Assembly (NCBI GenBank): GCA_022539475.1
Contig: VCMS01000127.1
Span: forward strand, 1 to 64,000
Length of the DNA: 64,000 nucleotides
Reading direction: 5' to 3'
From: Gracilaria domingensis
Taxonomy: Eukaryota > Rhodophyta > Florideophyceae > Gracilariales > Gracilariaceae
Shown here piece after piece: positions 11,501 through 33,087 of the stretch (positions are counted from its first letter, which is position 1; every line of letters starts with the position of its first letter). The position numbers were made by a program, and so were the translations under genes. A model generated the notes under the pieces. That model saw nothing but the letters and a program-made list of their open reading frames with translations, did not search any database and had not been told where the DNA came from.

Positions 11501-11536
11501 ACGTCTGTCTCTTGCAGATGCTAGTTTTTGGCGAGG

Positions 11537-11635
11537 GTCGTCCAGAAATTGGCAAGGGTCGTCCAGTAAATTTTTTGAAAAAATATCGAGATCAATTATT
11601 TCAAAATTTGCAGATAATTGCTTGGGTCGTCCAGA
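11537..11635 (+). repeat. Subterminal repeat words GGGTCGTCCAGA
   Basis: The word GGGTCGTCCAG occurs three times in about 100 bases just inside the arm end, and again in reverse complement at about 28290-28390. Repeated short words near the ends are typical of CACTA-related elements, where they bind the transposase. That role is inferred here. Confidence 0.6.
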
Positions 11636-11931
11636 ATCTCTGTGCAGTAAATACTGGGGGGTTTTCCACTCGTGCTAGTTCTTTAGTCGAAGGCTACCTG
11701 AACGTATTTCGCGAAGTCTAGGTTCAGTTTCCATTAAGGTGCACATTACACGATACCTTCTGCGGAATGATACCCTGCAACGCATGGAATACTAGTGCTA
11801 GTACAGATGATGCCCATTATGAAATCATACCGTTTTATTCGTATCTATTCTTCTATCGACCGCTTTTGCTAACCACTACTTCGCTATATTACATGTACCA
11901 TTTCCCCATAATGGATCGGGTGTAGGCGCAA

Positions 11932-12084
11932 TCTGCGGCAGATGCCGCAGACTGCACCTCCACCATAGTGCTGGATCGGTAGAACACATACGCACTCCGA
12001 GAGGATGAGGCGCGAAGCGCCTCATCCTCTCCGTTCCTCATGTAGGGAACCATGCCCAGATGCATGGTTCCCTACTTGAGGAAC
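11932..12084. repeat. Three-hairpin cluster, left arm
   Basis: Three inverted repeats follow each other: a small one around 11932-11951 (TCTGCGGCA against TGCCGCAGA), a nearly perfect 31-base one at 12000-12030 (AGAGGATGAGGCGC stem) and one of about 52 bases at 12033-12084 (GTTCCTCA..GTAGGGAACCATGC stem). The same three, in mirror order, lie at 27840-27992. Confidence 0.8.
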
Positions 12085-12119
12085 CTGCACCTGCAACTCG
12101 TGAGCTACGTCCGCATCAA

Positions 12120-12860
12120 AAGTCATTTACCTGTATACGCAAGCAGAAAGTATCCATAAGTTAGTCAATGATCCGTTGATACATTTGAAATGCGATGGAA
12201 CGTACCATTGATAAACAAAACAGAAACGTTGCGCTAGAAAAGTCGAGGGACCTAGTAAGTCGCAAATGGAAGAAGAAGCAGGAAAGGGATCGGTTAGATT
12301 ACCAGCCCACCATATCATCGTAAACCGCGAAAGTGTCGAAGCGAGAACTCACAAGCAAGGACACCGGAGAATGCCCATCGCCAGCAAACATAACCGCAAG
12401 CACGCGATAAACGAGAATCTAGTACTATCCAACAAGTACCAGCCAATCCGCCTATCCGAACAAGTCAGCCGGGTAACCGACCAATCTTCATTTTGTCCCT
12501 CCTCACAGATCGCCATGATGGATCTTGGAGACGCATGAAATAAAATTGTCGTTTACCTGTATACGGCAGCGAAGTATCCTAAGTTAGTCATCGCTCCGTC
12601 TGCGACAACAATTTGAATTGCGATGGAACGTACCATTGATAAAGCAACCAACAGACAGTTGCCGCTAGAAAAGTCGAGGGACCTAGAACTCGCAAAAGGA
12701 GAAGAAAAAGGAAAAGTGAATCGGTTAAGAATTACCAGCAATCCTTCATTCGTAAACAACGCAAAGGTCTCGAAGCAAGAACTCACAAGCACGACACGCG
12801 AGAATGCCCATGCTGCAAACATACATACCGCAGATGCGATAAACGAGACAGAAACCTAAT
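12120..12860 (+). repeat. Tandem duplication within left arm
   Basis: Two related copies, about 12120-12540 and 12545-12860, both contain GCGATGGAACGTACCATTGA and continue in parallel to a run ending in GCGATAAACGAG. The right arm has a single copy (about 27800-27520, reverse strand), so the doubling is specific to the left arm or to its assembly. Confidence 0.65.
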
Positions 12861-12934
12861 GTCTCACCAAGTCACAGAGTCGCCTATCCCCGAACAGGCA
12901 GAGATCCCACGATCGCCGAGAACCAACTCTGTTT

Positions 12935-13025
12935 GTTTGCGCCATAGGCTTTAGCTTCTCGAGTCTTGCGCTAACTTCCTTGAAAAGCAGCGCAAGACGC
13001 GAACGCTAGAGCCTACATGGCGCGC
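12935..13025. repeat. Inverted repeat in left arm
   Basis: GCGCCATAGGC..TCTTGCGCT on the left side of a short loop is answered by AGCGCAAGAC..GCCTACATGGCGC on the right. The left half is the same unit that is repeated in tandem at 27121-27560 in the other arm. Confidence 0.6.
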
Positions 13026-13679
13026 AACGAAATCGAACTAATTGGTCGCGTACTTACAGTCGTCGGTTTGGGTTTACCGGGTTCCCCGTTTTCAAAACCC
13101 TTCACTCGCTTTCTATATCTTGAAAAATAGAAGAAAGTTGAAGGTGGTTAGCTTCATTTCCTGCCGTTTCCATGTCGCAGAGCGCGGAAAGAACCGCGGT
13201 GAGGATTGGTTAGTTTCAGAGCAAAGATAACGTGGAAGGATATGGGAGACGTACGAAAAGACCTTCGACCGGAAAACATCCCTGAGATTACGGATGACTC
13301 CCGTCCTACTTTCTTCGCCCTCCTACTTTAAATGGGAGCATCCATAAAGTGGAGCGGCGGGAAAAAGTACGACGGAGCGGAGTATAACGCGACTGATATG
13401 ATGGCATGGCTGCACGACGCGTAACGGAAGTTCGGCACGTCGGGGCGGCGGCGGCGCGGCGAAGGGAAGAGATTTATTTTTCTGTGGCGCAGATTTGACA
13501 AGTGTCACAGCGTACAACGTGGGGAAACCATACAGGTTTTATAACCAGTCGGTAGATAATACGGAGTAACCCTTGTGTTGAGGTCGCACGTGTACCTACG
13601 TTGCTTTTTGAACGAAAGCCACGTGATTTAAACTCAAATATATCTCCGTTCTAGCAAGAACGTCCGATATTCGACTCGT

Positions 13680-16600
13680 CCGCTTTCGACCTCCTCTCCG
13701 CTTCGGAACGTGCTTCCCTTGCAGTCTTTGTCCGTCGTTTCTCGTTCAGTTCTTCTTCCCAATGGTCCTAACTACCTGTACCACATAAGGAAGCGTGGGT
13801 GCCCGCTTCGTACTCGCCGGGAGTCTTATCCATTCAACAGCATGTCAAACTCATTGCCCCGTTTCGCTCTGAAAGCAGCGCTGGAAGACCGACCAATAGC
13901 CCGGCCCATTCGAGAAACGCACGCGTCTCAGAGCTTTCCCGCACCGCGCCCGCATCTTTCCGCCAACGTCACTGGCCCCTTGTCGCCTTCCGCGAGCCTC
14001 CAGTGTCCGCAGGGCACATCGGTCGACCGCCACTCCGTCGCCCCTCCCTTCCGGACACTTTGCATTGTGTCTTCCTCCTTCCCGCGGCTCCCGCGTCATT
14101 AGAGCGACGAACACGAAGCAGTCCCGCCCAGTGCCTTCTGAGGAGGCCTCGGTGATCTTGCTATGGCCTTATCTCACGGCTTTGTCCTGGCTATCAGTAG
14201 CTTCCAACCTTGCATCCGTGCACGGAGGACGACTTAATTTGGGCTACTTCGGGACCCGCGATTTCGCCAAAAGCGATTCACGAGACCCATAACAAGCTTC
14301 CAAGCGCCTGTACAGACACTGAAGAAGGCCCATTTCGCAACGATACGCTCAAAGCGACGGTTTTCAATCGCAGAACGTGCCTCGCAGAAGAACATGTAAG
14401 CTTCAGCGCACCCTCTACACGAGAGACCGTATCGACACTTGCTGACAACAGCTCCAGCTTGGCTACAACGAAAACATTCTTCACCTTTCCTTCAGACCAC
14501 TCCCACCGAAAATATCTCACCCCCATGTCCGGTCTTCTCGCAAGAGACGCCACTCAAAACTTAAGGCCAATGGGTCATGGGCCTCTTTGGATACGTAGAC
14601 ATAAGTGGCTCGGTACTCCAAGACAATAAAGTTAGCAGCGCGATCTTTCGTAGGTCTTCTGCAGGTATACACCGATAAGTCTTCACAACCTCTACAAGCA
14701 CAACATCGGTTACCGCCCTATCCTCTCTCACCTCAATATTTCCAACTTCTCCGACCAGTCGCGTAAGTGTAATCCGTGATGACCTACAGTAGTGGCACAT
14801 ACTTCCCTACCACACTGATCGAGGTTTCCGCATCTGAAGCAGAACGCAATGCATTCGCTTCTAGCAAGTCTCTACGCGAGTCCAGGATGCCAAATCCTGT
14901 CAACGAATCTCTTCGTCAAAGTCTGGAGCCCAATTCTAAATCTCACGCAGAAAGGTTTTCAGTTCATCGGCGAAGACAAACTAAGTCGAGTGGTGCCATC
15001 CTCTTGCTTGCAAGTTATTGTGCGGATATTCCTGAGGCTACAGGACATTCTGTCATTTCTTCATGGCACCAAAACGCAAAGCCCGTGTCAATGATGCAAA
15101 GCCCCTCCTCATCTTTATGCAGTCCTACTTCCACCTCATTCAACGGACGTTCTCAAGGCACACCGAAAGCATACGAAAGACATACACACGCTATCTTGCA
15201 AACTGCACAAAAAGACGCAGCGGCGGACAGACGTCCACGTCGTGCGAGGGCGAGGAGATCTCCAAGCGGATTCTGATGCGTTCAAATTCCATATCTCTCA
15301 ATTCTTCCGTTCCTCCGAACTTCCCGTAAGCCCTGGGAATGGTCTCGGGGATTGGTCTTACAGCTCTGTTTCAATTTCGAACCATTACCAACCTTGCATC
15401 TCGCACTCCGTTCAACAGTCTGGATAAAACGGCCACAATCGAGAGACTTCGCGTCGACCACCCTCCTGTGCCACACACACTAGGCAACACTCTGCACTCC
15501 GCGTTCATCATTTCGCAACCGATACGCCACCGCCACCTCCTCCAACCATGCGCCAAACGCCATTCTAGCTGCCATAGAACGCGCATTCTCCCTGCCACGG
15601 TTTTACCATATCGATTTCTCCCACCGCAGGAAGAAAGGCAAATCTTTGAATGTGTATCTTCCCGAAAGACGGTCTCCGTGGAATGCTTGGAGGCCAAACA
15701 ATCTACAAAGCAACTTGGACATGGTCTTTCCCTTCATAGGAGCATTCTTTGACATAATGCTGTGGAGAACGGACGTTTGCCACGCAATCACAACCGTTTC
15801 TCTCAGTACTCGGAACTTTGCTCTCGACCTTATTCAGATTACAATCGTGACCCGTATTGGGAACTGATAAGCTCTCTCCTGTGTCTTAGTTCGGATTGAG
15901 CCTTCAGCGTTTCGCAACAGAAGAGCTCTGGCGGATTTTCATCCTCAGACTGGGAACTCTGAAGTTTCATTTCTCCAGATCATCTCGTGGACGATATCCG
16001 CCGTCCTGGGAAGTATCACGTACTACGACGCAAAGGCATATACGAAAATGCACACCTGCTATTTAAAGCAACTACAAAAAGAGTCGCAGGAACAGCAACG
16101 GCTGTGGACGGAGACTATTCGCTCCATTGAGCACGACATGTTAGAAAGCCAATGGAAGTGGGCAATACTCCTTACCAGCGTAAATCCAGGTTTACCAGGA
16201 ACTGTCCACACAGCTTCTCAGTTTTTGCAATGAGAGGGCGTTCTTTCTTTACGAGCTCTTCAACATTGTGTCTTCAGTATGTCCAGTTTCAAAAAATGGA
16301 CTGCTGTTAGAGAGAATGTGTCTCAAGTCGGGACACAGTCCGATTCCTTTGATCATTGGTGAACCAGGCCCTTCCTTCTTCTCCTCAGTCTCGTGACAGA
16401 AACAAACTGGATGAGCACTCTATTACATACGTTCCCAGAAAAGACAAGGAATAACTGCTGGTGAATTCGGCCCCTCCGTCGAAAGGCGGTTTTGTTTCCG
16501 ACCTCTTGAACACGTCTCGATTCGTCTTCTAAGGCAACTTAAGCTGGGACGACCCAAATACCCCATCATGCCAACATGTCTTCGCTTTCTCCAGCATTTG

Positions 16601-16700
16601 GTCCCAGTAGAACACCACAAGGTTTCCACATGTCATTGGTCCAGCCCACGGAGAAGATTCCAGAGACTCTGGGGTTTGCCACGTGTGTCGCTCCTGATGC
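13680..16700 (+). pseudogene. Plavaka-like transposase, broken copy B
   Basis: The whole stretch follows the complete transposase at 26375-23100 from just after its start to about residue 960. Frames change every few dozen bases, so only pieces of 60 to 170 codons stay open. Matching landmarks include the N-terminal zinc-finger region (13780-13860), the internal CxxC segment (15060-15120) and the HLLDH-type segment near 15970. Differences are mostly one- or two-base insertions, giving about 3000 bases against about 2860 in the clean copy. The 3' end is lost where the foldback element at 16818 lies nearby. Confidence 0.8.
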
Positions 16701-16817
16701 TCGGCCGTCGCGATTCGGGAGCTATTGCCAAGGTCGCGTATTGTGCCAAGTCGCCGGACAGTGGGTGTGAAGCGCTAGTTTTCTCTAGTTTGCATATATG
16801 TGCACGCGTGTGCAGCG

Positions 16818-17631
16818 AAATCACTGCCGGAAGAGCCGGAGGAGTGCTTTCGAAGGTCTTCCGGAGGGTGCCAGATGTGGCAGAACGTGCCCCGCTGCCG
16901 GGGCGGGGGGGGGGGGGGGGGGTGGGTCGTGTTAGGGTAGCTACCCTAACACGCGCGGACCCCCCCGCCCGCGGCACGTTTTGGACGATTTTTGAAAAAG
17001 GTGCGATTTTATGCCGCGGCGGGCGGGGGGGGGTTCGGTCGTGTTAGGGTAGCTACCCTAACACGACGACCCCTCCGCCGCGGCACGTTTCTTGGACGTT
17101 TTTTTGAAAACTTTGGCGATTTTAAAATGTGCGATTTTTATGCCCGCGGGCGGGGGGGGGGGTCCGGTCGTGTTAGGGTCCTACCCTAAACACGAGCGGA
17201 CCCCCGCCCACGGGCACATTTTTGGGACGATTTTTTTGACCAAATGTGCGATTTTATGCCCGGGCGGGGGGTCGGTCGTGTTGGGTAGGTACCCTAACAC
17301 GACCGACCACCCCGCCCGGCGGGAAGTTTTGGACGATTTTTTGAAAAATTGCGATTTTAAATGTGCGATTTGTTACTGCCCGCGGGGCGGGGGGGGTCGG
17401 CTCGTGTAGGGTAGCTTTACCCTAACACGACCGGACCCCCCCGCCCGCGGCACGTTTTGGACGCATTTTTTGGAAAAATGTTTCGAATTTATGCGCGGGC
17501 GGGGGGGGTTCCGGTCGTGTTAGGGTAGGTACCCTAACACGACGCGCCCCCTCCCGCCGCGGGCACGTTCTGCCACATTCGGAGGCGCCTTCCGGGTATC
17601 TCCCAAAACACGCCGCCGCCGGCAGTGATTT
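16818..17631. mobile_element. GC-rich foldback element with palindromic array
   Basis: The ends are inverted repeats of about 70 bases: AAATCACTGCCGG at 16818 and its complement ending at 17631, followed inward on both sides by GTGGCAGAACGTGCC and its complement. Inside are six units of about 107-128 bases. Each has a near-perfect palindrome (GTGTTAGGGTAG and its complement; centres near 16941, 17052, 17180, 17290, 17415, 17527) flanked by CCGG/GGGGGG runs, plus a spacer TTTTGGACGATTTTTTGAAA. No protein is encoded. It is best described as a non-autonomous foldback or MITE-like element. It adjoins the broken end of transposase copy B, which suggests insertion there. Long G runs (16906-16923) are a likely source of sequence error. 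Confidence 0.75.
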
Positions 17632-17996
17632 TTCGGTACTCCCGGCCGCCGGACGCTATGGCGCCGCTGTCCACGTGTTATTTGCGGGAGTAGGCTCTCA
17701 TGGAAGTGAACTGAGTGTACTCTTGACTACTATGCAAAGCATTGAAGATCAATAGACAGCGCGACCGATTGCTCAGTGAGTCTCATGCGTGAACTCCACG
17801 ACTCCTAAAGCCGTACAATAGCGTGCGAGCGGCCACGGACAGGACCAGGGCGAGACTAGCAGTGGCGCTGGGAGGAGCTGCCGAAAGCGGGGGTGCCCAG
17901 CGTAAGTCGCCATTTAAAAGGCTCGCATCCGTTCTGTATCTCGCAGAGCGAGCGTATTGTTGATAATAACCTTTCACCTGCAATACGCTGTTCAAC

Positions 17997-19989
17997 ATGA
18001 AGCCAAACTCGTGTTCGAAAGCGTACGCGAAAGCGTGCCTCCTCGCACTTGCGGAGCACTCCGATATTGCAAGCGGTGGAATTGCGGGTTTCGCTGCAGA
18101 TGGATTATGTGAGATGAAGGACGGTGAAGTCGGGGAAGCGTTGTTCGCATGGAATTGGAAGTGTTCTACGCCCGGCGAGTTGCAACGCGGGAAGCAATTG
18201 GACCCAAGGTCCTTCGTCGGTGGTTCCATAATATTCTTCATCCGTCGAAGAGTTCAGACGTTCTACCGCTTACCAGGGGCGGAGGGCCTGGATCTTCCCA
18301 ATATATCCAGGATCTCCGGACGGCCGCTCTTGGATGAGAAAACTGATGGAACGGTGCAGCCAGATTCCGGCCCTCCAAGCGACGAACGGTGAGCGCTTAT
18401 GAGTGAAGCGATGAACGCCGACAAGACCCGACCGGAGCCAATTCGAAGTTCATCAACATGCCGAGACGGTAGCGCATCAGTAGCCACCGTCCGCGGGCCC
18501 CGGTCATCGTCTGTTGGCGGAGCCGGACACTAAGGAGACAATATCCTCCCCAGCTACGAAGCGGACAGTCCAACAAAGTCTATCTCGGCTACGGAGCCCA
18601 CTGCGTCGAAAAGGCTTCTCCTGCGATGAATCAGACCGTCGACACAAGGGGATCTTCTGGCGTCGAAACAGACGGTTCAGGCAGGGGACGGGCTGTGCAA
18701 GACGGAGGAAGATGGAATCATGACAAGGTTCCCCCTTTCCAGACGCGCGATGCGCAATCCGCAGCAAGGAGACTGGTCCCATCTGGAACCCCAAACTGCA
18801 CAGAAACTGCGGAGCGCCAGGACGATGAGTATGCTTTTGTCCGCAAGAATGGCACCGTCTCAAGTGTTCTGGCGAAGCGGTCTCGGACCAGGGACACTAC
18901 TCGGGAGCAACGACTAGCAGACGATTCGTCAGCAAGGTACCAAAGGTGCCTCAATCATTACCCGGATGGTTGTTGTTAACGCTGTTAACATCAACTCTGG
19001 GTTGGACACTCCGCCCATTTACTCGCGTTGGAGTAGTTAAACGCCACGTTGATCGCCTTGTGAAGAGTATGGGAGAGCGGGGGATATTGCAGTACGATGG
19101 GTTTCTCCAGTGGTGGCTTACAAGATGCTACTACGGGAGAGAGGGCCATGCTGACAAGGGAGCTAAGGAAGAAGTTGCCTTCAATTGTAGATCGGTTTGC
19201 ATCGTCTGAAAGCTTCACATATTTGGCAGCGAGCTGGTGCCACAGAAGTGGAGCGATTAGCCAGCGTTTTCTGGCGTTGCAATCTTGCTATACGAAGAGA
19301 TGGGGAGGCCCATTGGGATAAAGAATTGTTATGTGTTGCTTCGACCTCAATGAGTCGACGAGTACCATGCCGAAGATATGTTTATGGCAGACAAGATTAC
19401 AACTCTATAGCTTAGTGTGGTTCGCCATTCGCTAATTGAAGATGTTGAGGGGGCTGACGCCGGCAGACGTGGATCTGCGAAGTGACAGAAGTGCTTGAAG
19501 GAGAGCCAACTGATTGGGCACTGTGGCAATTCGCATTGAACATGTAGCGTCCTAACATTTCTGAAACTGCACTTAAGGTTGCCTTTAAGAGAAGTATGAA
19601 ACTGAGAAATGTCTATGCAGTGTTCTCGTCTACTGCTGTACTTGGTGGCAGTATGTGGTTGAACTGTAATCAGGAAAAACTGGCAGAGGAACAGAGAGCT
19701 TGGCGGAAACTTCTCACCAAATACCTTGTCTAACGTTCAATATACTGCCATGGTTACGGTTATTCAGTTTCCGTTGATGGACGTTGAGCCAGAGAAGGAC
19801 GAGCTCACTCTCCAGAAGCAAGTTGTGAAGTGTATGAAGTTCATTGACGACGTGTTGGTTTCGGGTTTGGTCACAGGGGGTGATGTGGGCGACGTGGAGG
19901 GTGAAATGGAAGGCACTCTCGGAGACTATAAGTTTGGTGTTCTCGGCGAATCATGGAGCTTCCTTGCTTTTCTGACGAGAGGGAATTAA
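17997..19989 (+). pseudogene. Possible broken accessory reading frame of the transposon
   Basis: Open pieces on the plus strand suggest a damaged gene between the foldback element and the N gap. The first is 17997-18392 (131 codons, starting MKPNSCSKAYAK). A serine/threonine/proline-rich stretch follows at about 18400-18960. The last piece is 19726-19989, acidic and ending in LTRGN. None resembles a protein I recognise, and I could not align it with the 500-codon frame at 21601. It may be another accessory gene of the same transposon or an unrelated fragment. The call rests only on frame openness and composition. Confidence 0.3.
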
Positions 19990-20081
19990 GGGTGCATTCA
20001 ATGAATCACACCCTTGACCGACACTGTTGACGGACCTATGTTCCCTGGCAAGGATTTGAATAGGAGGCCATGGTATTGTGA

Positions 20082-20891
20082 NNNNNNNNNNNNNNNNNNN
20101 NNNNNNNNNNNNNNNNNNNNNNNNNNNNNNNNNNNNNNNNNNNNNNNNNNNNNNNNNNNNNNNNNNNNNNNNNNNNNNNNNNNNNNNNNNNNNNNNNNNN
20201 NNNNNNNNNNNNNNNNNNNNNNNNNNNNNNNNNNNNNNNNNNNNNNNNNNNNNNNNNNNNNNNNNNNNNNNNNNNNNNNNNNNNNNNNNNNNNNNNNNNN
20301 NNNNNNNNNNNNNNNNNNNNNNNNNNNNNNNNNNNNNNNNNNNNNNNNNNNNNNNNNNNNNNNNNNNNNNNNNNNNNNNNNNNNNNNNNNNNNNNNNNNN
20401 NNNNNNNNNNNNNNNNNNNNNNNNNNNNNNNNNNNNNNNNNNNNNNNNNNNNNNNNNNNNNNNNNNNNNNNNNNNNNNNNNNNNNNNNNNNNNNNNNNNN
20501 NNNNNNNNNNNNNNNNNNNNNNNNNNNNNNNNNNNNNNNNNNNNNNNNNNNNNNNNNNNNNNNNNNNNNNNNNNNNNNNNNNNNNNNNNNNNNNNNNNNN
20601 NNNNNNNNNNNNNNNNNNNNNNNNNNNNNNNNNNNNNNNNNNNNNNNNNNNNNNNNNNNNNNNNNNNNNNNNNNNNNNNNNNNNNNNNNNNNNNNNNNNN
20701 NNNNNNNNNNNNNNNNNNNNNNNNNNNNNNNNNNNNNNNNNNNNNNNNNNNNNNNNNNNNNNNNNNNNNNNNNNNNNNNNNNNNNNNNNNNNNNNNNNNN
20801 NNNNNNNNNNNNNNNNNNNNNNNNNNNNNNNNNNNNNNNNNNNNNNNNNNNNNNNNNNNNNNNNNNNNNNNNNNNNNNNNNNNNNNNNNNN
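20082..20891. other. Assembly gap (810 N)
   Basis: The bases are unknown. Apparent long open frames running through this stretch exist only because N codons cannot contain stops. Confidence 1.
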
Positions 20892-21589
20892 AGCGTCTTC
20901 CGCGGATTGCGTCAAGAATTCGTGGATCAGCGAACGATGTCGTGCCGTCAACTGCCGATAATGCAAATCGTGCATCTGTCTCTGCTCCTCAAGAAGATGA
21001 GGTAACTGGGCCCAGCGGGTCAGGACACGAGGGCATTACAACTGGAACCGAAGAGGTTCGTATGACACCAAAACCTTCATGTCCCCGGCCGATATCGAAG
21101 ACCGGAGCTACTGGGGCGCGGGTTACGCCGCCCAGTGGATCTGGACAACAAGGAACAATGACGAGAAGTCGTGAGAGTCCTAGTATATTAAGATCGTCAC
21201 GTCCATCCCTCTCTTCTAGAACTGGGGCCGCTATGAATCGTATCATGCCTCGCAATGGGTCCGGACAAGGGAGAAAAACAATAAGAAATCGAGAGACAAC
21301 TGATAGACGAGTTACTTTTCGACCTTCCCCTCTTTCCAGAACGGGGGCCGTTGCAGCTCGTACGAGGCCCAATTCATCTGATATACCATGCCATGGAGGA
21401 GGACATACACGGGAGTTGGAGCTCGGAGCCGTGCCAAGGGTGGACACAGAACGCCTGCAGCCTCTCGTGGCTAAGGCTATGGCACATGAGGATAGTTCCG
21501 ATAACGAAATAACACCGAATCCTGCGGCATTACCGGGGCCTGTCGCCGAAGAAGCTAGGGAAATAACGGAAGATATCCAAACTGGTTGA
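20892..21589 (+). CDS. Repeat-rich frame upstream of transposon ORF2, 5' end in gap
   Basis: The frame is open from the gap to a TGA at 21587-21589, giving about 232 visible residues. It is low in hydrophobic residues and rich in S, T, P, R and G, so probably disordered. It holds about three tandem repeats of 39-40 residues (roughly 21005-21365), each with a GSG(Q/H) motif and an SRTGA or SKTGA motif. The next frame, starting at 21601, overlaps the TGA region closely in another phase. The two may be one protein joined by an intron or broken by one indel, or separate genes. The function is unknown and the true start is hidden. Confidence 0.5.
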
Positions 21590-21600
21590 ATTCAAGCTCT

Positions 21601-23103
21601 ATGAACAGACCTGATCTTTTAAATGAACTGAATTGCTTGAAAGAAAAGGTTAAGACGCTACAAGAGGACTTGATGGTTCGGGGAATTCTAGTGAAGGTCG
21701 CCCAAGAGCAGAGTACGGCTTTGAAAAAGAGGCTTGAAGAGAAGGATCTAGTCATTGAAGGGCTAAGAGGGGCACTGAAACAGGAGGGAGATAGGAGTAC
21801 ACGTGCTGGTGAACCTGGGCAGACAGGTCGAAAGAAGCATAAAATTGAGGTGTGCGACGAGTTTCGAGGGGTTGCTCGAGCAGTGTATCACAACATGCTG
21901 ACGTGGGCAAGGAGAGAAACAAGTGAGCTATGGCTCGAAGGTGAGTCGCTCACCCGAAATTGGGGTAACCGTGCCGAGAAGGTGGAAGACGCAACTGAGA
22001 GTGGGGAAGGGCTTATTGAGCCGGAGGAAGGTGGTTCATACATGGTTCCTAAAAACCCCGTGGAGCTCTTGGGCAGTTTTGGCATGTTCACACCGTCGGT
22101 AGAGGGGGGGCCAGATGCTTTGCTGAAGAAAATGGTTGAAAGCGAGTTGAAGGAGTTGAGCTGGGAAGGTATTAGAAAAGCATCTCTTACCGACAGGTGT
22201 ATACTGGAACTTTGTGCAGATATGTGCCTTAGGCAGAGAATGCGGCAGACCATGAGTGACGTCGTGGGCGTTCGTAAGAGAAATACGAGGGATAAACTAT
22301 TTCTGCTCCTGGGGTACGATCTGATTTGGAGAAGAACAAAGCTGGTAGAAGAGAATGCTGACGAACTCACAATGCAGTTGAAGGAAGCGCAGGAGAACAT
22401 ACTGCGTCTTGACGAAAATGGTGTACCGAACACTTCATGGTGGAGAAAAGCCCCATTTGTTCGTCTAAAGTACTCCAATGCGGACAATGTCGAGGATATG
22501 CCGACGGAAGATCAAGACTTGTTCTTCCGAAACCGTGTCGGGGTACAAGTGCTGAAGGAGTTTATTGGGTATGATGTGGAAGACAAGGATACGGGCACCT
22601 TTTTAGATGGCACAATACTGTTGCTCGCACGTTTGGACGCTTGGGTGTTGACGGTTGTGAGCCTTCTAAGTACGGATGTGTCAAGGGGTGGCCAGAGACA
22701 GAAACTGTTTACAAAGAAGTTTGCTGAACTGCTACCTCTGTGTTTAAAGAATGTTCTGGGGGATGTTAGGCAACATGTCTTGAGGACCAATTCCAGCGAG
22801 TTTCATAATTTTGGAACGACAACGGAAGATTGGACTAAGGTTCTTGGTAATGACATGAGAGAGGCTACATTTGGATATCGAATGCCGTCGAACGGAAGAC
22901 TTTACCTCACTGTGAAAGAACAATTTTTTATTGACAGTGTGAGCCGAAGATTGGGGTCTATTAGCGATTGCTTCGTTGGTGAATGCGAGGAAGGGGATAT
23001 GGAGTTCAAGGAAATGGACATGAACGATTTCGGAATTAACACAGGATCACAAGAAAAGGCACCACAAGGTGAACATGTAGAAGATGGAGCCCTTAATGTT
23101 TAA
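21601..23103 (+). CDS. Transposon partner protein ORF2 (unknown function)
   Basis: A clean 500-codon frame from the first ATG at 21601. The first 60 or so residues look like a charged coiled coil (leucines and K/E-rich heptads). Next comes a low-complexity linker with a basic patch (GRKKHK), then a largely helical region with no motif I can name, and an acidic tail (GECEEGDMEFKEMD). It does not resemble a transposase, nuclease, helicase or OTU/Ulp1 protease by eye. Its stop (23101-23103) overlaps the stop of the convergent transposase (23102-23100) across TTTAA, so the two are tightly coupled in position. I infer it is an accessory protein of the Plavaka-like element, comparable in place only to second ORFs of CACTA elements. 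Confidence 0.65.
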   Translation: MNRPDLLNELNCLKEKVKTLQEDLMVRGILVKVAQEQSTALKKRLEEKDLVIEGLRGALKQEGDRSTRAGEPGQTGRKKHKIEVCDEFRGVARAVYHNMLTWARRETSELWLEGESLTRNWGNRAEKVEDATESGEGLIEPEEGGSYMVPKNPVELLGSFGMFTPSVEGGPDALLKKMVESELKELSWEGIRKASLTDRCILELCADMCLRQRMRQTMSDVVGVRKRNTRDKLFLLLGYDLIWRRTKLVEENADELTMQLKEAQENILRLDENGVPNTSWWRKAPFVRLKYSNADNVEDMPTEDQDLFFRNRVGVQVLKEFIGYDVEDKDTGTFLDGTILLLARLDAWVLTVVSLLSTDVSRGGQRQKLFTKKFAELLPLCLKNVLGDVRQHVLRTNSSEFHNFGTTTEDWTKVLGNDMREATFGYRMPSNGRLYLTVKEQFFIDSVSRRLGSISDCFVGECEEGDMEFKEMDMNDFGINTGSQEKAPQGEHVEDGALNV

Positions 23104-26100
23104 GGCTGTACAAGATCAACGTGCTCAGTTGGTCCTTCATCTGAATCATGATAGAATCGATTGATGTAGAATCGGTGTTGGAACCATTGAAGTGGAGGAC
23201 AAAAAGGTGGAGCAGGGTAGTTTGATCGAACAACATGGACAGTTCCCTGTAGTGCAGAAGCCGGAACCATCCCGTACCAAGGAGTTAACTCTACGATAGT
23301 CTCCGCTTTGGAATGACGAGGGAACGGAAGAGTGTGGTTCTTTTCATCGTTTGTAGCCCACCGTAAAGATATGCATTTCAATATGTGGTCGATGTTTGTT
23401 GCGGGGGGTAAAACCTCGAAATACCGGACGAATGCCACCTCTGGTGCGGTAAGTGCAGAATCAAGGAGAGATATTCGAATCAGAGCGACTACCTGGGCAA
23501 CCCAAGTCTCTGAATCTTCTCCGCTTACCAATACAGTGGAAAACTTTGGCTTTCTACTGGGACCAAATGCTGGAGAAGCGAAGACACGTTGGATGATGGG
23601 GTATTTGGGTCGTCCCAGCTTAAGTGCCTTAGAAGACGAATCGAAGTGTTCAAGAGTCGGAACGAAACCGCCTTTCACGACGGCCGAATTCACCAGAGTT
23701 ATCCTTGTCTTTTCTGGGAAGTATGTAATAGAGTGCTCATCCAGTGTTTCTTTCACGAGACTGAGGAAAGGAGGAAGGGCCTGTTGACCAATTTGATCAA
23801 GAATCGACCTTGTGTCCGTACTTGAGAACATTTCTCTAACAGCAGTCCATGTTTTTGAACTGGACATACTTGAAACACAATGTTGAAGAGCTCGTAAAGT
23901 GAAAGAACGCCCTCTCATTGCAAACCGAGGAAGCTGTGTGGAAGTTCCTGGTAAACCTGGATTACGCTGGTAAGGAGTATTGCCATTCCATTGCTTTCTA
24001 ACATGTCCGTGCTCAATGGAGCGAATAGTCTCCTCCACAGCCGTTGCTGTTCTTCTGGACGTCTTTTTGTAGTGTCTTTTAAATAGCAGGTGTGCATGTT
24101 CGTATATGCCTGCGTCGTAATACTTGATACTTCCCAGACGGCGAATATCGTCCACGAGATGATCGAGAAGATGAAACTTCAGAGTTCCCAGTCTGGAGGG
24201 ATGAAAATCCGCCAGAGTCTTTGTTGCGGAACGCTTGAAGGCTTCAATCTCCGAACTAAGACACAGGAGAGAGCTTTCAGTCCAATACGGGTCACGATTG
24301 TATCTGAATAAGGTCGAGAGCAAGTCCGAATACTGAGAGAAAACGGTTGTGATTGGGGCAACGTCCTGTTCTCCACAGCATATGTCAAAGAATGCTCCTA
24401 TGAAGGGAAAGACCATGTCAAGTGCTTTGTAGTTTTTGGCCTCCAGCATTCCACGGAGACCGTCTTTCGTGAAGATACCATTCAAAGATTTGCCTTTCTC
24501 CTGCGTGGAGAAATCGATATGTAAACCTTTGGCAGGAGAATCGCGTTCTATGGCAGCTAGAATTGCGTTTGCATGGTTGAGGAGTTGGGTGCGTATCGTT
24601 CGAAATGAACGCGATGCAGATGTTCCTAATGTGGTGCACAGGGTGTCTGACTGCAGTCTCTCGATTGTGGCCGTTTTTATCAACTTTGAGATGCCGAGAT
24701 GCAAGTTGTGTAATGGTTCGAATGAGAACAGACTGTATGGAGACAATCCCGGGATCATTCCAAGGCTTACGGAAGTTTCGAGGAACGAAGGAATGAGAGA
24801 TATGGAATTTGAACGCATCAGAGTATCCGCTTGAGATCTCCTCTCCCTCGCACGACGTGGACGTCTTTCCGCCTCGTCTTTTTGTGCATGTTGCAAGATA
24901 GCTGTGTATGTCTTTCGGATGCTTTTCGTGTGCTTTTGAGAACGTCCGTTGAATGAGGTGGGAATAGGACTGCATAAAGATGAGCGAGGGGCTTTGCATC
25001 TATGACACGGGCTTTCCGTTTTGGTGCCATGAAGAATAGACAGAATGTCCTTAGCCTCAGGAATATCCGCACAATAACTTGCAAGCAGAGGATGGCACAC
25101 TCGACTTAGTTTGTCTTCGCCGATGAACTGAAAACCTTTCTGCGTGAGATTTAGAATGGGCTCCAGGACTTGACGAAGAGATTCTTGAAGGATTTGCATC
25201 CTGGACTCGCGTAGAGACTTGCTAGAAACAAATGGCATTGCGTCTGCTTCAGATGCGGAAACCTCGATCAGTGTGGTAGGGAAGTATGCCACTACTGTGA
25301 GGTCATCACGGATACACTTACGGCGAAGCTGGTCGGAGAAGTTGAGAAATATGAGGTGAAGAGGATAGGCGGTAACCGATGTTTGCTTTAGAGTTGTTGA
25401 AGACTTATCGGTGTATACCTGCAGAAGACCTACGAAAGATTCACTGTAACTTATTTCTTGGGAGTACCACACTATTCTACTATCCAAAGAGCCCATGACC
25501 ATTTCCTTAAGTTTTGAGGTGGCGTCTCTTGCGAGAGAGCCGGACATGGGGTGAGATATTTTCGTGGAGTGGGTCTGAGGTATAGGGTGGAAGAATGTGT
25601 TTTCGTTGTTAGCCAACTGGAGCTGTTTCACAAGTGTCTGAACGGGGTCTCTCGTGTAGAGGGTGGCGCTGAACTTACATCCTTCTGGCGAGACAGTTCT
25701 GCGATTGAAACCGTCCTTTGAGGCGTATCGTTCGAAAATGGCCTTCTTCAGTTCTGTACAGCGCTTGGAACTTGTTATGGTCTCGTTGAATCGCTTTTGC
25801 GAGAATCGCGGGTCCCGAAGTAGCCCAATTAGCTCGTCCGCCTCACGATGACCAAGGTTGGAAGCTACTGAAGCCAGACAAACCGTGAGATAATCCATAT
25901 GCAAATCACCGAGGGCCTCCTCAGAAGGCACTGGGCGGGAACTGCTTCCGTGTTCTCGCTCTAATGACGCGGGAGCCGGGGAAGGAGAAACACAATGCGA
26001 AGTGTCCGGAATGGGAGGGGCGCACGGAGTGGGGTCGACGATGTCCTCGGACACTGGAGGCTCGGGAAGGCGACAAGGGGCAGTGACCGTTTCGGAAGAT

Positions 26101-26375
26101 GCGGGCGCGGGTGCGGAAAGCTTGAGACGCTTGCTTCTCCGAATGGGCCGGCTATTGTCGTCTTCCAGCGCTGCTTTCAGACGAAACGGGCAATGGTTGA
26201 CATGCTGTTGAAGGGATAAGACTCCTCGGCGAGTAACGAAGGGGCACCCACGCTTCTTATGTGTACAGTAGTAGACCATGGGAAGAAGAACTGAACGAGA
26301 AACGACGACAAAGACTGCAAGGGAAGGGCGTCCGAAGGGAGAAGGAGGTCGAGCGACAGTCAAGATCGACGTCAT
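23100..26375 (-). CDS. Plavaka-like (CACTA-related) transposase, complete
   Basis: An uninterrupted 1091-codon frame starting at ATG 26375. Near the N terminus (residues 37-62) is a C-x6-C..H-x3-C zinc-finger-like motif, as in Plavaka-type transposases. Around residues 448-462 comes HGTKTESPCHRC, resembling their HG..PCR.C segment. At about 555 lies FEPLHNLHLGISK, matching the (D/E)P.H....G pattern. At about 732-772 lies LKFHLLDHLVDDIRR with a later EHAHLLFKRHYK, the usual 'KfHllqH..E..H...K..Y' signature. The C terminus holds a region ending FYINRFYHDSD, as in the family. I could not assign the full acidic triad with certainty. The open frame suggests recent activity. Broken relatives lie at 1-1100 and 13680-16700. 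Confidence 0.85.
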   Translation of the reverse strand: MTSILTVARPPSPFGRPSLAVFVVVSRSVLLPMVYYCTHKKRGCPFVTRRGVLSLQQHVNHCPFRLKAALEDDNSRPIRRSKRLKLSAPAPASSETVTAPCRLPEPPVSEDIVDPTPCAPPIPDTSHCVSPSPAPASLEREHGSSSRPVPSEEALGDLHMDYLTVCLASVASNLGHREADELIGLLRDPRFSQKRFNETITSSKRCTELKKAIFERYASKDGFNRRTVSPEGCKFSATLYTRDPVQTLVKQLQLANNENTFFHPIPQTHSTKISHPMSGSLARDATSKLKEMVMGSLDSRIVWYSQEISYSESFVGLLQVYTDKSSTTLKQTSVTAYPLHLIFLNFSDQLRRKCIRDDLTVVAYFPTTLIEVSASEADAMPFVSSKSLRESRMQILQESLRQVLEPILNLTQKGFQFIGEDKLSRVCHPLLASYCADIPEAKDILSILHGTKTESPCHRCKAPRSSLCSPIPTSFNGRSQKHTKSIRKTYTAILQHAQKDEAERRPRRARERRSQADTLMRSNSISLIPSFLETSVSLGMIPGLSPYSLFSFEPLHNLHLGISKLIKTATIERLQSDTLCTTLGTSASRSFRTIRTQLLNHANAILAAIERDSPAKGLHIDFSTQEKGKSLNGIFTKDGLRGMLEAKNYKALDMVFPFIGAFFDICCGEQDVAPITTVFSQYSDLLSTLFRYNRDPYWTESSLLCLSSEIEAFKRSATKTLADFHPSRLGTLKFHLLDHLVDDIRRLGSIKYYDAGIYEHAHLLFKRHYKKTSRRTATAVEETIRSIEHGHVRKQWNGNTPYQRNPGLPGTSTQLPRFAMRGRSFTLRALQHCVSSMSSSKTWTAVREMFSSTDTRSILDQIGQQALPPFLSLVKETLDEHSITYFPEKTRITLVNSAVVKGGFVPTLEHFDSSSKALKLGRPKYPIIQRVFASPAFGPSRKPKFSTVLVSGEDSETWVAQVVALIRISLLDSALTAPEVAFVRYFEVLPPATNIDHILKCISLRWATNDEKNHTLPFPRHSKAETIVELTPWYGMVPASALQGTVHVVRSNYPAPPFCPPLQWFQHRFYINRFYHDSDEGPTEHVDLVQP

Positions 26376-27120
26376 GCTGAGAACGGAGAATATATTTTGA
26401 GTTCAAATCACGTGCTTTCGTTCAAAAAGAACGTAGGTACACGTCGACCTCAACACAAGGGTGTACTTCTCGTATTATCTACCACTGGTTATAAACCTGT
26501 GGTTTCGCAACGTTGTACGCTGTACACCTGTCCAATCTCGCACAGAAAAATAAATCTCTTCCCTCCGCCGCCGCCGCGCCTCCGACGTCCGACCTTCCCT
26601 TACCGTCGTGATCCGTGCCATCCACATCCTCGCGTTATACTCCGCTCCGTCCTTCTTTTTTCCTCCCTGTACTTTATGGAGGTTCCTTAAAGTAGAGGGC
26701 GAAAAAAGTAGGACGGAGTCATCCGTATCTCACGGATGTATTCCGTGCAGTCTTTTCGTAGGTTCTCTTCCATATTCTTCTATGTATCTTTGCTCTAAAC
26801 TAACCCATCCTCACCACGTTTTTTCGCGCTATTCGACATGTAAACGGCAGAAAATAAGCTTTGGGTTACCGGGTTCCCGTTTTCAGCCTCCAACTCGTTC
26901 CATTTGTTCAACTACGTTCTGCTTACGATATGTTCCATCTTGTTCTACGTCTTGCTACTAACATTGACGTGATTGAAGGTAACCACTATTTGACGTGCGT
27001 CCTTTGTATTTCTTCCGACGTCCACAACGACTGTAAGTACGCAACCAGTTTCATTTCGTCTCTCAAGATCGATCTCTGACTGCTCGTGTAACCTATCACG
27101 CGGTATTGCCGATCTTGGTT
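26376..27120 (-). promoter_or_regulatory. Upstream region of the transposase with a hairpin
   Basis: This stretch lies 5' of the transposase and is conserved in the left arm at about 13030-13680. It includes a long inverted repeat at 26645-26722, CCGTCCTTCTTTTTTC on one side and GAAAAAAGTAGGACGG on the other, around a short loop. The left arm keeps a matching hairpin near 13300-13375. Being preserved in both arms just upstream of the gene, it may act in expression or transposase binding. That is inference. Confidence 0.5.
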
Positions 27121-27560
27121 CACTTTGTTGCGCCATAGGCGTCTCTAGCTTCTCGCATCTTGCGCTACTTTTGGTTTGTTGGCGATCTTGGTTCCGCCAT
27201 AGACTCTTCTCTCTTCTCGCGTCTTGCGCTGCTTTTGGTGTATTGGCGATATTGGTTGATATTGGTTGACTGGCTCGGGCGATAGGTTCATCATTGGCAA
27301 TCTTGGTTGACTAGGTTGCGCCATAGGATGGTCTCTCTCTTATCGCGTCTTGCGTTACTTTTGGTGCATTGGCGATATGGTTTGACTTGGTTGCCTCATA
27401 GACTCGCCTCTCTTCTCGCGCCTTACGTTGATCTTCTTGTATTGGCGATCTTGGTTGACTGGCTTGCGGGATAGTCGATTCTGGTACTTGGTTGCGACAT
27501 AGGCTGCTCTCTCGTTTATCGCATTTTGCGGTATGTTTGCTGCATGGGTATTCTTGGTGT
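27121..27560. repeat. Minisatellite in right arm
   Basis: About five imperfect units, each with the words TTGGCGAT.TTGGTT, GCGCCATAG and CTTCTCGCGTCTTGCG. Spacing is irregular, roughly 60-125 bases. The left arm has only one such unit, arranged as a hairpin (12935-13025). Confidence 0.65.
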
Positions 27561-27839
27561 CGTTGCTTGTGAGTTCTCGCTTCGACACCTTTCGCGGTTT
27601 ACGATGATATGGTGGGCTTGTAATCTAACCGATCCCTTTCCTGCTTCTTCTTCCGTTTGCGAGTTACCAGGTCCCTCGACTTTTCTAGCGCAACGTTTCT
27701 GTTTTGTTTTATCAATGGTACGTTCCATCGCATTTCAAATGTATCTAACGGATCATTGACTAACTTATGGATACTTTCTGCTTGCGTATACAGGTAAATG
27801 ACTTTTGATGCGTACGTAGCTCACGAGTTGCAGGTGCAG

Positions 27840-27992
27840 GTTCCTCAAGTAGGGAACCATGCATCTGGGCATGGTTCCCTACATGAGGAACGGAGAGGAT
27901 GAGGCGCTTCGCGCCTCATCCTCTCGGAGTGCGTATGTGTTCTACCGATCCAGCAATTTGGTGCAGGTGCCCTCTGCGGCATCTGCCGCAGA
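27840..27992. repeat. Three-hairpin cluster, right arm
   Basis: Mirror of 11932-12084: about 52 bases at 27840-27891 (stem GTTCCTCA..GTAGGGAACCATGC), a 31-base near-perfect palindrome at 27894-27924 (GAGGATGAGGCGC stem) and a short one at 27973-27992. All three stems survive in both arms even though the left arm is otherwise noisy. Confidence 0.8.
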
Positions 27993-28429
27993 TTGGGCCT
28001 ACATCCGATCCATCATGGGGAAATGGTACATGTAATATAGCGAAGTAGTGGTTAGCAAAAGCGGTCGATAGAAGAATAGATACGAATAAAACGGTATGAT
28101 TTCATAATGGGCATCATCTGTACTAGCACTAGTATTCCATGCGTTGCAGGGTATCATTCCGCAGAAGGTATCGTGTAATGTGCACCTTAATGGAAACTGA
28201 ACCTAGACTTCGCGAAATACAGTTCAGGTAGCCCTCGACTAAAGAACTAGCACGAGTGGAAAACCCACCAGTATTTACTGCACAGCGATTCTGGACGACC
28301 CAAGCAATTATCTGCAGATTTTGAAATAATTGATCTCGATATTTTTTCAAAAAATTTACTGGACGACCCTTGCCAATTTCTGGACGACCCTCGCCAAAAA
28401 CTAGCATCTGCAAGAGACAGACGATAGGA

Positions 28430-31400
28430 CACTGAACCCCGTATGGGGTGACCACTTGGTGGAGCGCTCGGCGCCCTATTTGGGTAGCGCGCGCCCCGTT
28501 TCTCCATTTAGGTAACTGGCGTCGGAGCCAATTGCTTCGGCAACGGGAACCAAACCACTCGGGTATCTCGTGACTTCCAAATCCTCCCTTCCCAAAACCA
28601 CTTGGTAATCCACAGATTTCTAGGTCGGGAGACCAAAATATGTGGTATAGCCGATCGGTGCGAGCTGCTAGTGGGGAGCCCTGCGTGGGCTCGACCCGGC
28701 GGAGGAGTGAAACACGTGACACCTAATAGGTCGGCAGCACCCACCGTTGCCTATAGTGCACGGTGACCAAGTGGTAAATACGCCTGCACTGGTGTGCGGC
28801 AGGCACGTATAACCCTCGAGGTCAGCAAAACTATTAGAGGACTACTAGACTTACCAATTGGTGACTGTAGAACCGAACTGGTGTCAAATTAGCCTAGTTG
28901 GTGCTTGACTTTACCATTTGGTGTGGGAGGTTGGCGTCTCGGGGGTTTAGTACACCCGAGCGCCCCTCCGGCTCTCACGGGCCTAGTGCCACGTGGGCCA
29001 CCGGGAGGTGCATTTGTGGTGCACCACCCCGGCCACATATCTATACTACCTAGTAATTATTAATTCTAAATCATCGAGAATAGACTAATTAGTCCTGTCC
29101 AAGCCTGCGCTGGCGCGTCCCACGTGGTACAGTAGACACACGTGCCCGGGAGCCCGTGACGTCACCACTTGGTCTTGTAGAGCCCCCGTTGATCTGGCCG
29201 AGCTATACTACACGCTGCCCCGGGTTGCGGGCTCGATACGTCTCTCCTTCCGCCTGGGCGTAATTAACCAACTCTAGGTACGTCATTCGGCGTTTTTCCT
29301 CGCGTCGGCGAGCGACCAACGACCGAATGGTGGGGTCCAAACCATCAACAAACATGGTACACCGCTCCTGTGCGGAATACACATTACCACATCGGTGAAA
29401 CGCTTTGTTCAACCGCGTTGAATAAACCGTTTCAGATTCTCCACTCTTCTGTCTAGTGTCGCGAACAGCAAGAGTAGCGCTGTAAATCGCGTTGGAAGTC
29501 GCGTACGACCTGAGAAGGTAGTTCACGGCTTCCGGCCAACACGTGACTCCTCCTTCCGAGGCTCTCGAGGTTCCTCGAACTGAGTTGTACTGATCTTCCG
29601 CAGTCCCTGTTAGGAAGTACGGCAGTGCCACATATGCCTGTGCTTCACTCATACCGAGTATATCGGCCTCCTGGACGAACCTGGCAAGGAAATCCAAGAT
29701 AAGGATAGGATCTGTCCCCGAGAACTTCCTTGTTTCAAGGGTAACATTCAACCTTCGAATGTAGTCCTTCACCTTACCGGTTCCTCGCGAGGAGCGATTC
29801 GAAGTAACATCCTCCAACCGATAATAGCGGTACGACAACAGCTTTGTGTAGAGCGGGTCCGTCGGCTTCAACTCTTTGAATCCCAAGTGGCGCCGTCCTT
29901 TCACGCGTGATCTCATCACTGCCTGAGTAGACTGCGTCGCTTTCGACCGTGTCGAACGTGACCTATGACGGTTGTCATCACTATCAGATGAATCTGACGA
30001 ACTGTCTTCAGTCATGCCGCTCGAGTCAGAGCGCGATGAATCCGAATCATAGTGAACTCGTTTTGGGTGTCGACGTTTCTGCTTCACCGAACGATGGTCT
30101 TCATCCGCAGATGGATTTCCTTGAGGAACCTGTGCGTCCACAGCTTCATCCATGCGGATTGTATCCTCCAGCGTTTCCAAGCGCGAACGAATTCGACCGA
30201 TATCGGTGCGCATTTCCTCGACAAATGCCCGGTACTCCGTGACGAAGACGTCTGGGCTACCCAGATTTTCCATAATGGAATTCACGTCCCTTCTCAGAAG
30301 ACGTAAGTCTCCTGAGACATCCCTCACCTGGGCATTATCAACCTGCGTCCTCAACGAGGTAACATCCTGTAGGAGTTCCACGTGAGCAGCGTGATTAATA
30401 TCCAAGCGGGATTCCAACCTAGCCAACTCGGCTACGGTAGCAGCGTTAGGGTTAACCATGGATGGTGTCTCAACGACGGGTTGAGCAGAACCCACATTTT
30501 CCTTAGGTGCTTCCGTAACTGAACGCGTTCTCCGGGGGCGGGGTACGACCTCAAGAGGTTGCGCCTCATCTGGGATAGACCGGGACGTCGGTGCAACGGG
30601 TGGAACTGCAGCTGATGACCGCGCGGAACCAGCTCGAGAACCTCGAGGCGGTTGCGGCATACTGGAAACCAGTAAGCAATCTGATCCAGATGATCCAGTT
30701 AAACTCGTACACGAGTCTCCAAAGAACAAGAAAACTCAATAAACCTTCTCGGTAAACCACCACGTCAGCGGTTCACGTTCAAAAGTTGTCAACCTCCAAA
30801 ACTCTAAAGAGTCCCCTGATCGTTGTCAGAAAACGGTGATCCGTCAACAATCAAGTCAATTCCACAACAGTGACCTAAAACGGTTCTAGGTCGGGAGACC
30901 ACTTTGTGGGGCAAACTCGGAAGAGTGAAACCCACCAGACTGTCCGAAGGTCCGCTCTCGTGAGAGATGGCAGACCAGTGACAGAGCCCTCTGTACCACC
31001 GTAACTCGGTTGTAAGGCCGAAGTGGCAACTGGCTATACCTACAGAGGTGATAGGCCACGTGGTGAGGAAACGATGAGAAACTCCAGAGATGGGGTGGTA
31101 TCGGCAACGATGAAACAAGACCAACGACAGGTGTAGTCCCGAGAGGGAAAGCAACAGAAAACAACAACCAAACAACACCCACACGCGACGGGTAGGGCCT
31201 CCTCGGCACTGTGCCCGGAGCGGGGCGAGATCCTCCAACGGTAATGCACGGGTTTCCGTAAACACGGCAAAACTGTATACAGAGTCGGATCACTTCGTAA
31301 TCTAGTCCTATACCTCCTCGGTACGACCCTCAGGTCCCGACATCAACGACAGATGTTTCTCAAAGGTACCGAGAGGGTAGGACCACCGTAACCAGACGTG

Positions 31401-31863: not shown

Positions 31864-33087
31864 ATGCGTTGCTCTACACTCTCTCCCTGGATCGCCGCGG
31901 ATAAAGCCAACAGCGATACCGTCGCGGTTGTTTTTCACCACACGACGCAAGACAACACGGGTCCCCTGGACATACCACAAGACAAACAATGTGGCAGCGA
32001 AGGCCGAGCATGGCGTCTACGTCAAAACAGCGTAAACTGGTTCTACGTCTATGCCCTCAGCAGAGAATTTCAGATGTCATTCCCTTGGAAGCGAATGTTC
32101 CGTATAGATTATACTCTGTTCCGGACAATTGCAGACGGTAAACGTCCGGCATTTCAAACAATTGACACGAAATACCGAAAAGCACTGTCCGTAGATATCA
32201 AATTCGCTGCCTTTCTGCTCTATGTCGAAGGTTCTAATTGTGAGCGAACCGCCTCTCAACTGGAAATCGGAACCAGTACTGTGTCGTTACTGATTCCGAT
32301 TGTAGCTAAATCTATAGTGCAGCAGTATCGTTCGGAGAACTGCTTCGTAAATGACAATGACTCAAATGCTAAGGCCATGAGACAATTTCTAGGAATTTCG
32401 GAACTCCCCTATTGCGTTGACGCTGTGGATGCAGCGCATATCAAGTGGCCGTCCTGCCCAACAGGGCAGTATAACGAATAACGATGTTAAAAGGGGTATC
32501 CTAGCATTGTAATTTTTGCCATTGTGACTGCAAACACAATAGTTATCTTTGCAGATATAGGGCGACCAGGAGTCCTGAATGATTATACAATTTATCAACA
32601 ACGGTCCTTGAAACAGAAGAGAGAACAAGGGTCATGGCTTGTAAGCATTGTTTGTGATTTAATGGTAAACGGTGTGTTTTTGAGACCATATTTGATCGGC
32701 CACTGCGCTTTTGAGCTCTGTATCACAAAGATAAAAACAACTAGTGCACGCAAAAAGAAAACAAATACCGTTTTGAATCATTGAGATGGAGTTGCGTGTG
32801 AGGCGCGTAAGTCTGTCAAGTGCGCATTCGGCATACTGAAACAGAGTCGTTCGGTACTAAAGGAGGGTGTGAAAAGGCAGCATGAAGATGAAATTGCGCT
32901 AGTTTGCCACGCAAGTTTAGTGCTACATAATTTGAGTGTAGACGACGAAGACTTCCACGAGTATGAAATCAAAGAAACCGCTTTGCTTTCAGGTCATGAT
33001 TGCGTTTCGAGTCACACAGCAACCGAAAAGCGCCAGCAAGATGCATTAATTTACTTTGCAATCAACAGTTCTTCAAATGAGGACTGA
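31864..33087 (+). pseudogene. PIF/Harbinger transposase, decayed
   Basis: One reading frame spans the stretch and shows the DDE_Tnp_4 pattern. An N-terminal region with FPWKRMFRIDYTLFRTIA is followed by YCVDAVDAAHIKWP (first catalytic Asp region), then KGYPSIVIFA, then GRPGVLNDYTIYQQ (second Asp) and KCAFGILKQS followed later by LHNLSVDDED. The usual Glu of the 'vE.aFG' motif reads Lys here. Three in-frame stops (TAA 32479, TAA 32488, TGA 32782) interrupt it but no frameshift is seen, so it is a pseudogene. Each stop is one C-to-T change from a sense codon (CAA or CGA). A Myb/SANT-like partner frame lies convergently downstream, as usual in this superfamily. Confidence 0.8.

Follow-up and report, generated by a model that had tools for sequence, protein, structure and literature searches.

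A probable Plavaka-type transposon with long inverted ends and an indel-rich left arm in Gracilaria domingensis

We analysed a 64,000-nucleotide stretch of contig VCMS01000127.1 from the red alga Gracilaria domingensis (the window), in which positions 11502-28423 hold two inverted arms, the right one with an open transposase gene of the Plavaka family. With a probability of roughly 0.65, the locus is a cut-and-paste transposon of the Plavaka type (CMCT clade) with long ends that are nearly identical, and on its left side unpolished reads from another near-identical copy or allele would have been used to fill a repeat gap. The inverted arms consist of two very different layers, a clean outer layer and an inner layer rich in insertions and deletions (indels).

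Two layers in the inverted arms

A first-pass annotation had described two arms in reverse-complement orientation and proposed aligning them. Self-comparison of the window recovered the arms at 11502-16698 and 28423-23479, parted by ~6.8 kilobases (kb) of unmatched sequence. The outer block, 11502-12416, pairs with 27510-28423 in inverted orientation at 96.6% identity, and the inner block, 13150-16698, with 26860-23479, also inverted, at 86.9%. The clean match between left and right ends abruptly near 12357, as judged by eye from the alignment. The left-arm homology ends in mid-gene at 16698, 379 base pairs (bp) before the transposase stop codon. The features of the outer ends and of the left arm are as follows.

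11502-12345, plus strand: left outer end, a clean inverted copy of 27577-28423 (17 mismatches, 5 one-base indels)
11537, 11558 and 11626 (span 11537-11632), plus strand: three GTCGTCC words of the left end
11932-11951, 12000-12030 and 12033-12084 (span 11932-12084), plus strand: three hairpins of the left end, from DNA folding
12122-12416 and 12548-12848, plus strand: direct duplication in the left arm, spacing ~425 bp, 80% identical
12357-16698, plus strand: noisy, indel-dominated left inner arm, probably an unpolished long-read gap fill
about 13690-16620, plus strand: scrambled left transposase within the noisy inner arm
27577-28423, minus strand: right outer end, the inverted copy of 11502-12345, with the same hairpins and three GTCGTCC words
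28293, 28361 and 28382, minus strand: three GTCGTCC words of the right end

Over the outer 0.84 kb, the 17 mismatches and 5 one-base indels fall in 843 aligned bases, so that the ends are 98% alike. In both arms, the GTCGTCC words stand at mirror-identical distances of 35, 56 and 124 bases from the arm end. For the sequence GGGTCGTCCAG, the window contains 8 sites with no more than one mismatch, compared to 0.91 expected; six are exact and all lie inside the two arm ends, and the two one-mismatch copies lie elsewhere in the window. Because the two arms are homologous, the six copies amount to three sites counted twice. When the outer arm was folded as DNA and compared to shuffled sequences, four of five segments gave z scores of -6.0 to -12.5, while segment 11640-11780 folded no better than shuffles (z 0.87). 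The words and hairpins of the first-pass annotation are thus present, three GTCGTCC words per arm, with strong folding in all but this segment. Seven of the 17 mismatches cluster, by eye, at 11920-11968 / 27956-28004, around the hairpin at 11932-11951. Both versions of this hairpin can lengthen its stem, and there might be selection on it.

The inner layer has a different error profile. Compared to the right arm, 13150-16698 contains 111 mismatches and 296 indel events in 3295 aligned bases; 259 of the events are single-base, and 222 are extra and 74 missing in the left arm (three insertions per deletion; insertion excess, p 1e-18). There are 2.7 indel events per mismatch in the inner arm compared to 0.3 in the adjoining outer end, and Fisher tests of outer versus inner gave p 3e-6 for the mismatch:indel ratio and p 6e-22 for indel density. 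The one-base differences are therefore indel-dominated and insertion-biased with a sharp border, the pattern looked for in an unpolished patch. The published PacBio error profile is 2% mismatch, 4% deletion and 9% insertion, as given in passages of PMC3504050.

Read-like noise was put on the right transposase in a simulation with six replicates per setting. With no true divergence and a substitution error of 1%, the simulated rates per aligned base were 0.022 for mismatches, 0.0069 for isolated mismatches, 0.066 for insertions and 0.020 for deletions. The three blocks of the left coding sequence gave 0.024, 0.031 and 0.023 for mismatches, 0.0024, 0.0057 and 0.0072 for isolated mismatches, 0.080, 0.063 and 0.060 for insertions, and 0.032, 0.021 and 0.018 for deletions. 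Isolated mismatches in the left transposase split 5:5:5 over the three codon positions. The left coding sequence is compatible with a near-identical gene read with errors, at ~0-0.5% true divergence. Since the frame breaks consist mainly of indels with an excess of insertions, as read noise does, the left transposase is noisy rather than demonstrably broken. Of the earlier description of one complete and one broken transposase, the complete right gene (an open frame of 1091 amino acids) holds; the break on the left is unproven, its frameshifts matching the sequencing-noise profile.

A third, more divergent partial transposase copy lies at 5-923 in the orientation of the left arm, cut by the window edge. 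It has 59 extra and 26 missing events and 117 mismatches in 820 aligned bases. Noisy patches may reach beyond the left arm, or this copy may simply be old.

The right unit and the core between the arms

The right unit and the core comprise the following features.

23100-26375, minus strand: intact Plavaka transposase, 1091 amino acids (Pfam PF18759, E 1e-18)
26645-26718, minus strand: hairpin upstream of the right transposase (z -10.7)
27105-27548, plus strand: degenerate direct repeats of the right arm, from self-comparison
21586-23103, plus strand: ORF2, an open frame of 505 amino acids, convergent with the transposase
20892-21589, plus strand: open frame just upstream of ORF2; the scanned open reading frame (ORF) runs into the N gap
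20082-20891, no strand: N run of 810 bases
17970-20081, plus strand: coding-like sequence whose frame shifts, left of the N gap
16818-17631, no strand: foldback (palindromic) element of six repeat units, from self-comparison

The Plavaka assignment made at first pass was confirmed by Pfam, with PF18759 matching residues 234-491 of the right transposase at 68.1 bits compared to a curated cut-off of 26.3. The protein also carries CHRC at position 457 and HLLDH at 735, candidates for the C(2)C and H(3)H motifs of the group. A PDB sequence search with the transposase returned one chance-level match (E 0.18). ORF2 matched nothing in Pfam or, by sequence, in PDB, and the frame at 20892-21589 had no Pfam match. 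A degenerate ~120-base repeat (62% identity) lies inside this frame at 21119-21369. Single-sequence AlphaFold models were unusable, with predicted local distance difference test (pLDDT) scores of 34.8 for the transposase and 34.5 for ORF2. No relatives of the transposase were confirmed in viral contigs or genome contigs and none of ORF2 in viral contigs, nor did the 33-base end sequence have an exact match in viral contigs; these viral and prokaryotic collections have little bearing on the distribution of the family. Rfam returned nothing at gathering thresholds.

The hairpin noted at first pass upstream of the transposase in each arm was found on both sides, at z -10.7 on the right and -4.0 on the left, and the foldback element, N gap and ORF2 do lie between the arms. 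A further hairpin, at 12930-13030 (z -5.9), is found in the left arm only. The foldback element is rich in guanine and cytosine and has six units around the palindrome GTCGTGTTAGGGTAGCTACCCTAACACGAC. Because its units differ partly by small indels, it may be noisy too. A relative lies near the window start, at about 2203-2658. The stretch at 17970-20081 may be an upstream portion of the ORF2 gene.

Beyond the right end, words like ACCACTTGGT and ACCAATTGGT recur at 28424-29180, a gag-like gene lies at 29203-30729, and 31864-32481 resembles a Harbinger-type transposase (all by eye). A DDE_1 domain is carried by 34646-36070 (Pfam, E 1.8e-13). The window also holds YGGT and SRP54-GTPase genes beside proteasome-ATPase and cullin genes, a combination that weakly favours an algal origin.

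Origin of the left arm

Three options had been put forward at first pass: one giant composite unit, two elements inserted head-out, or an assembly of allelic or neighbouring copies. An assembly problem is the best supported for the left arm from ~12357 to at least 16698, and the other two are less so. A gap fill with unpolished reads fits both the point inside the gene where homology ends (16698) and the N gap close by. When short-read assemblies are gap-filled with long reads, the same insertion-skewed errors and repeat-driven misplacement are seen (PMC3504050, PMC8848313): in the relevant passages of the DENTIST paper, sequence inserted by other gap fillers has ~81.5-97% identity, and repeats can send reads to the wrong place during gap filling (PMC8848313). 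Several points weigh against a gap fill. The case for it at 12357-16698 comes from sequence alone, and the simulated error rates were picked by the analyst to be similar to the observed indel rates. In the 5' leader of the left patch, 13 isolated mismatches were counted over 474 bases, compared to 14 over 2701 in the coding sequence (p 4e-5). The left patch is therefore not a mere re-read of the right arm but another copy, allele or mosaic. The left arm's own duplication likewise appears to mark the patch as a distinct copy or mosaic; some variants that set its first unit off from the right arm also occur in the second (12548-12848; by eye). As a distinct copy or mosaic, the patch could be truly at home at this place. 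The leader differences disfavour a plain re-read of the right arm, and the ~6.8 kb of non-matching sequence disfavours a simple fold-back read. A search for a PacBio adapter where the duplication units join, near 12500, gave no evidence for one: the tile there scored 32.0 compared to 36.0 for the best tile elsewhere.

It is unlikely that the locus is a genuine 17-kb composite, with two ~5-kb inverted arms, each with a transposase, around a core of ORF2 and the foldback element, moved by its outer ends. The clean, inverted, 98% alike outer ends agree with such a composite, as do the leader differences, which would make the left arm a separate copy, and both transposases are perhaps intact in the organism, the left one only badly read. 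The mid-gene end of the left homology and the unpolished state of the left patch speak against it, and a search of 25 offsets around the outer flanks turned up no 4-10 bp target duplication. A 3-bp duplication was likewise absent at 23 offsets, and 2-bp matches at 2 of 23 offsets are uninformative. A real palindromic Plavaka composite of 17 kb in an alga, with near-identical ~5-kb arms, working transposases, a cargo core, 0.84-kb hairpin-bearing ends, and gene conversion between the arms that keeps the transposase genes closer to each other than the leaders are, is in our estimate similarly doubtful. Two separate copies inserted head-out, each truncated on its inner side, are a rather improbable source of the layout. 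They would explain why each arm has outer end, leader and transposase in the same order, and no long target duplication joins the two outer flanks. However, no inner end is recognisable for either copy, since 12-base words from the terminal 59 bases are absent from the rest of the window, bar the arms' own internal repeats, and the missing duplication proves little, Plavaka duplications being only 2-3 bp (PMC12730594, in its passages on termini). Given that length and the 2-bp matches, target duplications cannot separate one from two insertions. That the left arm is an old copy with a transposase truly decayed by mutation is hardly credible. Its reading frame is scrambled, with a longest stop-free run of 167 amino acids compared to 925 in the matching right stretch, as decay would predict. 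However, natural decay seldom yields 2.7 indels per substitution, and the events here are insertion-biased next to an outer end with only 0.3 per mismatch.

Comparison with known transposons and implications

Plavaka elements of Agaricomycotina (PlavakaA/B, CMCT clade) resemble the Gracilaria element in the Plavaka transposase domain and the inverted ends, and the Gracilaria protein has candidate C(2)C and H(3)H motifs, according to the passages of PMC12730594 on these elements. Plavaka transposases of the CMCT clade carry a C(2)C and an H(3-4)H motif, both lying between the second D and last E, and PlavakaA/B termini are TGT..ACA with a 2-bp target-site duplication or CATCA..TGATG with one of 2-3 bp (PMC12730594). 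The arms as delimited here open with CGTCTGTCTC (CGTCTG first), with TGT beginning four bases in, and comparison of the flanks fixed no target-site duplication. A 0.84-kb inverted end is not mentioned in the Plavaka passages of PMC12730594.

CACTA/EnSpm elements (Spm/En, the 20.5-kb soybean Tgmt) are also large, with short repeated words and stem-loops near their ends and a transposase plus a second protein (PMC2613891, in part). In maize Spm/En, TnpA binds the subterminal repeats, and TnpA and TnpD are both required (PMC2613891). Here, in contrast, the ends are symmetric over 0.84 kb and the arms begin CGTCTG rather than CACTA. CACTA/EnSpm elements have CAC..GTG termini and a 3-bp target duplication; if the arm border lies near the terminus, the absence of both sets the element apart. 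In the giant repeats of Amoebidium, gene clusters of up to 50 kb in which tyrosine recombinases are abundant, a Plavaka transposase similarly lies beside unknown genes in a large unit (PMC11244446, passages on Plavaka). Unlike in those repeats, Pfam recognised no tyrosine recombinase among the ORFs scanned. There is a report of Plavaka from a green alga (PMC12636532), and the Plavaka passages of PMC12636532 and PMC11244446 describe no red-algal Plavaka element.

In the proposed gap-filled transposon, the right unit is intact and has a long outer end with its three GTCGTCC words and hairpins, the open transposase gene and the convergent ORF2, and the left outer 0.84 kb is the matching end, inverted. 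The left arm past ~12357 is most likely unpolished long-read sequence placed in a repeat gap, in which case sequencing errors and not mutation have garbled its transposase. By analogy with Spm/En, ORF2 could play the part of TnpA. The transposase, perhaps together with ORF2 in that role, would bind the repeated words in both ends, and the DNA would then be moved by cut and paste.

At face value, the locus would pass for a giant palindromic transposon in which one transposase is live and the other dead. The pattern of base differences points to read noise across most of one arm, which calls for caution when repeats are mined in gap-filled assemblies. The remainder, an open transposase gene, long word- and hairpin-bearing ends and a partner ORF, is useful for defining Plavaka outside fungi.
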